A stretch of 64,000 bases of DNA from contig JANQMR010000005.1 of the NCBI GenBank assembly GCA_028279985.1, positions 62,001 through 126,000 on the forward strand, read 5' to 3'. The notes under the pieces were generated by a model. It did no database searches and was not told the origin of the DNA. It saw nothing but the letters and a program-made list of their open reading frames with translations. How positions within the stretch are numbered: the first letter of the stretch is position 1; every line of letters starts with the position of its first letter. This document shows, one piece after another, positions 4,611 through 14,728 of this stretch. Position numbers and translations under genes: made by a program. The DNA is from Woeseiaceae bacterium. GTDB lineage: Bacteria > Pseudomonadota > Gammaproteobacteria > Steroidobacterales > Woeseiaceae.

Positions 4611-4695
4611 GGCCTTGCCGCTGGGATGTTCTATAGTGGAATGGCTCCCTGCGGTCCGCTTTATTTCCACTATAGAACATCCCAGCGGCAAGGCC
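4611..4695. repeat. Large perfect palindrome, conserved-core family copy 1
   Basis: A perfect 31-bp inverted repeat: left arm 4611-4641, right arm 4665-4695, separated by a 23-nt loop (4642-4664). The central 31 nt (4638-4668, GGAATGGCTC ... CGCTTTATTTCC) matches the centre of the palindrome at 14577-14663 read on the other strand (25 of 31 positions, my count), while the outer arms of the two copies are unrelated. It sits between divergent genes, 26 bp upstream of the ATG at 4722. There is no T-run, so it is not a typical intrinsic terminator. Confidence 0.9.
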
Positions 4696-4721: not shown

Positions 4722-5684
4722 ATGAAACGCAAGTCCGATACACCCTCGGCGGTCGTGGTTCTGCCGCCGGTTCGCGGCGGCCGGCTTACCGATCCCGGTT
4801 TGAGGCGTTGGCTTGCGCACGGCCGGGTCTCCCGCTGCGCGAAACGGGAACCGCTCATCGCGACCTTGCTCGGCGTCCTCGGCCGGCAGCCGCCCGCCAC
4901 CGGTATCGCGGCGCTTCGTATGTGGGGTCAAACCGGTGACCGTCCCACGGTCTGGATCGCCGCCGCAGACCCGGTGTACCTGGAGCCCAGACTGGATCAT
5001 CTCTGTCTGCACGCGCTCGGCGCCGGCGCCGTGCCGGCGGCCGAACTGAGCGTGCTGATGGACCATTTACAGGCGACGCTCGGCAACGACGCCGACTTCG
5101 GTTTCGCTCGCGTCGGCGCCTACGGTTACCTGCGCCCGGACCGTCCGCTGGAAACCTCCGCTTCGTCACCCGGCGTCATCGACCAGGACATGCCGAATCG
5201 GTACATGCCGTCGGCGGCGTCCGCGGCGCGGTATCGCAAGCTCGTCTCCGAGATCGAGATGGCTTTACACGATCATCCGGTGAATCTGGATCGCGGGATG
5301 CGCGGTTTGAAGCCCGTGAACTCGCTGTGGTTATGGGGCGGGGGATTCGCTCCCGAGCAGCTCACCCAGCCCTTGCTCCCCCTGTTCGCCGACGATCCCT
5401 TGCTCAGAGGCTATTGGATGAGCGTCACCGGCGTGAGCGAACCCTGGCCCGGTTCCATCGGTGCTTGTCTCGAGGCTTCGGTTGCGGGATTCGTTGCGGT
5501 TGCGCCTGAAGTGGACGACCCGGACGGTCTCGCGAGGTGGCTGGCCGAGCTTCGCTCGGCACTGTTGAGCCGGCGCCTCGAACGGCTGGATATTCTGTTC
5601 CGGGACGGCATACGCGCCGAGCTCAGGCGGTCCGACGCCGTGCGCTTCTGGCGTCGCCGGTCGCTGCTGGACGAGGGACTGTGA
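4722..5684 (+). CDS. RpfE-like / phosphoglycerate mutase-like protein
   Basis: 320-residue cytoplasmic protein matching the family encoded beside recJ in many gammaproteobacteria, annotated as RpfE-like or cofactor-independent phosphoglycerate-mutase-like. The best signature is VNSLWLWGGG in the middle, preceded by HDHPVNLDRG; the metal ligands of true alkaline-phosphatase-superfamily mutases are not evident to me, so enzymatic activity is unproven. ATG at 4722 follows the palindrome; there is no strong Shine-Dalgarno. Its stop (5682-5684) overlaps the recJ GTG start. In Xanthomonas, rpfE, recJ, prfB and lysS are neighbours in the rpf region, which matches this order, although no rpfF, rpfC or rpfG is in the window. 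Confidence 0.78.
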   Translation: MKRKSDTPSAVVVLPPVRGGRLTDPGLRRWLAHGRVSRCAKREPLIATLLGVLGRQPPATGIAALRMWGQTGDRPTVWIAAADPVYLEPRLDHLCLHALGAGAVPAAELSVLMDHLQATLGNDADFGFARVGAYGYLRPDRPLETSASSPGVIDQDMPNRYMPSAASAARYRKLVSEIEMALHDHPVNLDRGMRGLKPVNSLWLWGGGFAPEQLTQPLLPLFADDPLLRGYWMSVTGVSEPWPGSIGACLEASVAGFVAVAPEVDDPDGLARWLAELRSALLSRRLERLDILFRDGIRAELRRSDAVRFWRRRSLLDEGL

Positions 5685-14558: not shown

Positions 14559-14576
14559 GCGAATCCCACGATGCCA

Positions 14577-14663
14577 GCGGTTCAGGGTCGGGTACCTGTT
14601 CATCGGAAGTAAAGCGCGGCGAAGTGAGCCATTCCGATGCACAGGTACCCGACCCTGAACCGC
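14577..14663. repeat. Large palindrome, conserved-core family copy 2
   Basis: Inverted repeat of 32 bp with a single mismatch. Outer arms 14577-14599 and 14641-14663 (23 bp, perfect), mismatch at 14600/14640, inner arms 14601-14608 and 14632-14639 (8 bp), loop 14609-14631 (23 nt). Arm length, loop length and the core on the minus strand (GGAATGGCTC ... CGCTTTACTTCC) match the element at 4611-4695, whereas the arms (GCGGTTCAGGGTCGGG...) do not. It lies 18 bp after the sdhB stop. Confidence 0.9.
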
Positions 14664-14686
14664 GAAACAGCACGCCTGCCCCTAGT

Positions 14687-14728
14687 TCATGGGAAATTAA
14701 AGCACAGCGCGGTGGGCCATCCCGATGA
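14687..14728. repeat. Degenerate third copy of the conserved-core element over the sdhE start
   Basis: On the minus strand this reads GGGATGGCCCACC, then GCTTTAATTTCC, matching the core of the other two copies with scattered changes and one inserted base. Only a short bulged stem remains (TCATGGGA at 14687-14694 against TCCCgATGA at 14720-14728). That stem includes the sdhE start codon, and the loop holds the GGTGGG (14711-14716) that is its only Shine-Dalgarno candidate. Confidence 0.6.

Follow-up and report, generated by a model that had tools for sequence, protein, structure and literature searches.

The two long hairpins in the window (the whole 64-kb stretch of DNA that we analysed) are copies of a previously unnamed, dispersed intergenic repeat family of the Woeseiaceae, and this family resembles the REP repeats in kind but has longer stems. 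Its copies share a conserved 23-nt tip on a covarying stem of about 30 bp, lie between genes, mainly convergent ones, are dispersed, and are present in some relatives and absent from others. We think it probable that these are non-autonomous, REP/BIME-like repeats in which the folded tip of the bottom strand is what is read, and in which the arms are kept perfect by template switching combined with selection.

An exhaustive inverted-repeat scan of the whole window (+1/-3 scoring) bore out the geometry described in a first-pass annotation of this DNA, that is, arms of 31 and 32 bp around 23-nt loops. Hairpin 1 is paired at 31/31 positions and scores 31, hairpin 2 is paired at 31/32 positions and scores 28, and the next best inverted repeat in the window scores 13, so that the 64 kb contain no other structure of this type. 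The 25/31 identity claimed for the two 31-nt centres, in opposite orientation, was reproduced as well, and the core pattern matched the window twice compared with 0 matches in 100 shuffles. The features are as follows.

4611 to 4641, plus strand (core in top-strand orientation): left arm of hairpin 1, 31/31 complementary to 4665-4695
4641 to 4663, plus strand: conserved 23-nt core of hairpin 1, ATGGCTCCCTGCGGTCCGCTTTA (pattern match G000:C8:66641-66663, 0 mismatches)
4665 to 4695, plus strand: right arm of hairpin 1, from the inverted-repeat scan
14559 to 14724, no strand: sdhB-sdhE intergenic segment, enlarged by insertion, with flanking genes identified by Pfam
14577 to 14608, minus strand: low-coordinate arm of hairpin 2, 31/32 complementary to 14632-14663
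14610 to 14632, minus strand: conserved 23-nt core of hairpin 2, whose minus-strand sequence is ATGGCTCACTTCGCCGCGCTTTA (G000:C8:76610-76632, 1 mismatch)
14632 to 14663, minus strand: other arm of hairpin 2, from the inverted-repeat scan
14688 to 14727, minus strand: decayed third copy, with a core relic at 14698-14720 (3 mismatches to the core)

An ORF that has no Pfam match starts at 4722, 26 nt downstream of hairpin 1, and on the opposite side of this hairpin is a divergent DUF498 gene. Hairpin 2 sits between sdhB and sdhE, a gap that in the relatives inspected measures about 0-100 nt and carries no hairpin core. The decayed third core adjoins hairpin 2; no long arms were found around it, and what can be read from the sequence is a short remaining inner stem, CATGGGA/TCCCGATG. 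This relic overlaps the sdhE start codon (14725), and its inner stem, which reaches into that codon, could influence sdhE translation.

Comparison of 297 distinct copies reduces the conserved part to 23 nt, ATGGCTC-X-CT-N-CG-X'-T-X-CGCTTTA. The earlier description of a conserved 31-nt centre was therefore right that a core exists but too generous in its extent: GGAA/TTCC covaries across relatives (GGGA/TCCC, GAAA/TTTC, GCAA/TTGC, CGAA/TTCG) and thus belongs to the arm. Within the core, X/X'/X is C/G/C in 149/297 copies and G/C/G in 136/297, the pair 8-14 swapping between C.G and G.C, while N is free and its neighbours make a bottom-strand GNA in 288/297 copies. Given this covariation and the nearly constant GNA, the bottom strand is predicted to be able to form a GC-GNA-GC or CC-GNA-GG mini-hairpin (CC-GCA-GG in hairpin 1). 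GNA-type DNA mini-hairpins, d(GCGNAGC), are unusually stable (PMC4686876); they are known in vitro and in designed aptamers (PMC4686876), whereas the tip described here, which fits one or the other form in nearly all copies, is deduced from covariation alone. The conserved G and A on both sides of the mini-hairpin may pair as sheared G.A, with a single bulged base between them. A point against a folded tip is that the isolated core has little stability under a standard DNA folding model. At three pairs of orthologous sites (L140/L144, L101/L116 and L021/L134) the tip alternates between GCT.CGCTG and CCT.CGGTC, three coordinated changes with nearly unchanged arms, which suggests a base triple or conversion. 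The proposal in the first-pass annotation that the core is the recognised part of the element is likely to be correct.

The arms start outside the core at a constant 2-nt offset and are paired as far as about position 30 and no further, with a modal stem length of 30 bp. In 138 arm families, picked without any pairing filter, 22.0 of 29 positions are paired compared with 10.6 +/- 0.25 when partners are shuffled, and stem positions 4-29 make use of all four Watson-Crick pairs, some of them rarely. Variable, perfect arms on a common core had already been noticed in the window, but calling them unrelated was an overstatement: aligned outward from the core, arms have a mean pairwise identity of 0.36 against 0.27 expected from composition, and the arms of hairpin 1 and of another copy in the same genome (L001 vs L005) agree at 24/29 positions, with all five differences compensated. 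On this comparison the arms are fast-changing, covarying relatives with a weak common bias, not unrelated in origin. All genomes used here are draft assemblies, mostly MAGs, and foldback artefacts exist in metagenomics; nevertheless, the copies come from independent projects, occur at orthologous sites across species, share the 23-nt core and pair far above shuffles, so that chance palindromes or assembly artefacts have a negligible probability.

The first-pass annotation had named an absence of further copies as evidence against its reading, and a core search of the genome and its relatives showed that such copies exist. The own genome holds 10 cores at no more than 3 mismatches over the 19 specified positions, and the 31-nt pattern is present in 31/60 relatives, with up to 64 copies in one genome, while a reversed control pattern gave essentially no matches across the same 60 relatives. 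In an even, class-wide sample of 369 genomes, which is shallow outside the own genus, matches were confined to that genus plus one single weak match. Named records with the core are mostly Woeseiaceae MAGs, with a few labelled Coxiellaceae, Rhodospirillales or Myxococcota, although the taxon labels of such MAGs may be wrong. The family is almost confined to Woeseiaceae. The core found in MAGs labelled Coxiellaceae (L040, L085, L099; arms paired in the two inspected, L040 and L099) may reflect either horizontal spread or misbinning. Phages were rejected as a vehicle, with 1 match in 2.9 million viral contigs, its arms unpaired. One orthologous intergenic site carries this hairpin in about ten species (L007, L015, L018, L020, L021, L044, L048, L056, L134, L327); it typically lies about 500-600 nt from a contig end, which implies that a nearby sequence, with no Rfam match, breaks assemblies.

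Placement was assessed with a simple home-made codon-usage gene finder, by which 185/186 copies are intergenic. The junctions of these intergenic copies are convergent in 83 cases, codirectional in 60 and divergent in 7, with 35 at a contig edge, as against 65 convergent, 133 codirectional and 62 divergent among background junctions longer than 120 nt. Pairs of opposite orientation are in the +- order in 57/62 cases and mostly 108-173 nt apart, and many copies are single (as in G027). Units of 230-300 nt occur as paralogues with unlike flanks; together with empty sites in relatives, such paralogous units show mobility. One unit (L136) terminates in canonical REPs (GTAGGAGCG) and, to judge from its empty site, ...CCTC|CTAC, lies beside CTAC as expected for RAYT-type single-strand transposition; since only 13/297 cores are near a canonical REP, this case is a lead and not the rule.

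The genomic behaviour of the family is that of the REP/BIME/REPIN class associated with TnpA_REP (RAYT) (PMC3116915, PMC3733652, PMC8266576): short palindromes in tens of intergenic copies, a preference for convergent and codirectional gene ends (83 and 60 compared with 7 divergent here), inverted doublets about 70-150 nt apart, presumed non-autonomy, tolerance of G.T in stems and strand-specific hairpin features. It could be, then, that these are REPs or REPINs of the ordinary kind, mobilised by a RAYT, and that their tag has escaped notice, as the inverted pairs, intergenic placement, REPIN-like copy number and REP-ended L136 unit would suggest; moreover, the canonical REP sequence GTAGGAGC occurs within 150 nt of 13/297 cores and of 0/182 random points. 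We consider this somewhat unlikely. The classic REP was rejected as a universal partner, being absent from the vicinity of all the other cores. REP and REPIN stems measure 5-13 bp (PMC3733652) rather than 30 bp, and their sequence is family-specific, whereas the Woeseiaceae stems are almost free in sequence and carry a 23-nt structured tip. REPs also have a GTAG or CGTC tetranucleotide, or a close variant, at the foot of the palindrome, but no conserved foot was found beyond stem position 30 in the Woeseiaceae hairpins, where columns 31-40 carry near zero information. TnpA_REP recognises and cleaves a specific single strand, a trait for which the counterpart here, the strand-asymmetric mismatches described below, would be indirect evidence only. 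Finally, Y1_Tnp (PF01797) occurs in 32/60 relatives, but the own genome and two element-bearing ones, G035 and G025, lack it, and in the neighbourhood of the 22 Y1 loci examined the best core match has at least 5 mismatches of 19; neither co-occurrence nor adjacency links this transposase to the family, and it was rejected as a partner. We do not file the family as REP, since a motif at the foot, a stem of REP length and an associated transposase gene were each looked for and not found. Earlier doubt that any named family has this layout was in that sense justified, as none with exactly this layout was found in the literature searched, although the family behaves in genomes as the REP/BIME class does.

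Canonical GTAGGAGCGGTTCTCGAACCGCGA REP repeats are present in Woeseiaceae (L136, L054, L369, L393, L397), where they sometimes end the same unit as the new hairpins or share an orthologous intergenic site with them. Some Y1_Tnp genes (L410, L412, L403, L165) are flanked by hairpins of another type, based on GGGGACATTC or GGGGACTGTCC; these are a distinct repeat family, which may belong to the transposases concerned. With regard to the IS200/IS605 elements, single-strand transposition of their kind would explain both a strand asymmetry and the one insertion beside CTAC/GTAG, but their ends are direct-strand subterminal hairpins, whereas the Woeseiaceae pairs are inverted and contain no ORF.

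The way in which the stems change argues that both sides are altered at once. In 42 independent nearest pairs, 124 stem changes are compensated and 49 one-sided, and among pairs that differ at exactly one stem position the change is compensated in 8/10; counts within families are not independent and are given as evidence rather than as formal tests. Transversion-type changes make up 60/124 of the compensated ones, which therefore did not pass through G.U. In one MAG (OFTM62, G426), eight recent hairpins of the alpha type show 29 compensated and 0 one-sided pairwise differences, and changes in arm length are mirrored in both arms as symmetric indels. Furthermore, one orthologous hairpin has been inverted in place between G440 and G447 (L127 vs L385). 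Polymerase template switching is documented to homogenise arms and to invert spacers (PMC8604942), and a role in both the origin and the upkeep of perfect stems has been proposed for it (PMC8794818); the likeness to this quasipalindrome-correction mutagenesis extends to multi-base compensated changes and symmetric indels (PMC8604942, PMC8794818, PMC7202029). Template switching is a mutation process, whereas the hairpins are an element family; in the present case its substrate would be hundreds of long natural hairpins with a common tip. We infer that the compensated changes, symmetric indels and in-place inversion are probable marks of template-switch homogenisation. The suggestions in the first-pass annotation that the arms are made or corrected as a unit, and that template switching may do this, are both strengthened by these data; unpaired, neutral substitutions in orthologous arms, which would have spoken against them, are not what we see, since changes are mostly paired in orthologues and paralogues alike.

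Template switching is unlikely to be the whole explanation. The alpha arms in G426 have diverged at 6.7% of pairs and the unit centre at 21% per site, about three times faster, which is contrary to pure neutral homogenisation and means that selection must contribute. Nor does template switching account for the way in which core positions 8, 14 and 16 covary as a set of three. Perfect stems would be kept mainly by template switching and partly by selection.

A second source of evidence is the asymmetry between strands of the mismatches that remain. In the stems of 111 representatives, read on the top strand, A.C mismatches outnumber G.T by 130 to 27, C.T outnumber A.G by 76 to 12 and C.C outnumber G.G by 46 to 8, and no like skew was seen in the flanks. 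On the bottom strand the common mismatches read as G.T, G.A and G.G, which are the better tolerated mismatches in DNA. Residual mismatches, then, are strongly skewed towards those that keep the bottom-strand hairpin stable. The strand of the core is random relative to flanking genes (30:30), so the asymmetry belongs to the element itself. Alternatively, the element might have a mutational skew of its own, as could arise if its bottom strand were often single-stranded.

The single strand could as well be read at the level of RNA: the bottom strand would be transcribed, an RNA hairpin (a 3'-UTR stabiliser, attenuator or small RNA) would be selected, and ordinary mutation and selection would compensate its stem. 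The strong covariation, the bottom-strand G.U tolerance and the placement at gene 3' ends agree with this, and the same features have been taken as RNA function in GTAG repeats (PMC3733652). However, an RNA element is hard to reconcile with the random orientation of the core relative to genes, with half of the compensated changes being transversions that lack a wobble intermediate, or with one-step pairs being mostly double changes. Intrinsic terminators were rejected, as no T-run lies directly 3' of the stem: the 10 nt after the stems contain on average 2.16/2.22 T against a background of 2.09, with at least 6 T in 0 and 2 of 297. Nor does any Rfam family match; the window gave 0 matches at gathering score and nothing real on the hairpin or the orthologous loci, the sub-threshold matches to the hairpin being mostly to microRNA precursor models. 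We therefore regard an RNA-level element as unlikely.

The sites without a hairpin bear on how the arms arise. If insertion generated the arms from an inverted copy of the neighbouring DNA, as the first-pass annotation had also envisaged, or if the core entered pre-existing palindromes, arms would be locus-specific and one of them might pre-exist at an empty site. Five hairpin-less orthologous sites were compared with occupied ones (L136 vs L376, L089 vs L373, L154 vs L382, L286 vs L394, L057 vs L369), with insertion boundaries that are approximate because the relatives are 80-93% identical. Neither arm is present at the four sites in G447 (L373, L376, L382, L394); the fifth, L369, has an 18/25 match to the left arm and is ambiguous, as this could equally be a deletion scar. 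Inverted copying of flanks is thus unsupported as the usual origin. In G426, paired units have further inverted repeats beyond their terminal repeats (L312, L313/L305, L322), which are 31-45 bp long, perfect or nearly so, and differ from locus to locus, as flank copying would lead one to expect, but these outer repeats are essentially a feature of G426 only and are absent from the other families tested, and recent paralogs with different flanks have the same arms. Flank copying is, in our judgement, very unlikely.

Based on this analysis we can outline how a REP/BIME-like repeat with these properties might work. The unit would be one hairpin, or two inverted hairpins within a mobile unit of roughly 230-300 nt. 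Something would read the folded bottom strand as a GNA-capped tip, of which sheared G.A pairs are a probable part, on a long stem of almost any sequence; the likeliest reader would be a protein specific for single strands, for instance a Y1/HUH transposase that works on ssDNA in trans. A mutation in one arm would be copied into, or erased from, the other by template switching within the hairpin during replication, the same process would invert whole hairpins in place, and hairpins that fold badly would be removed by selection. With time the stem sequence would turn over completely while its pairing is kept, which would leave seemingly unrelated perfect arms on a common core. A bolder possibility, which we put forward tentatively, is that these mobile hairpins form a new class, recognised through their shape and a structured ssDNA tip and not through the sequence of the stem, which template switching could then rewrite repeatedly; the cognate enzyme would possibly not be a RAYT.

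Compensated stem changes are commonly held to prove that selection acts on RNA structure, and the Woeseiaceae hairpins are a warning that covariation alone can mislead. With 297 copies in about 138 arm families, and with changes that affect both sides of the stem, they allow the choice between selection and a mutation mechanism to be measured directly in bacteria, and they offer a natural setting well suited to testing how stems are kept perfect when DNA is copied. Should the tip be what a mobile-element enzyme recognises, the stem would serve in that recognition as a handle free of sequence.
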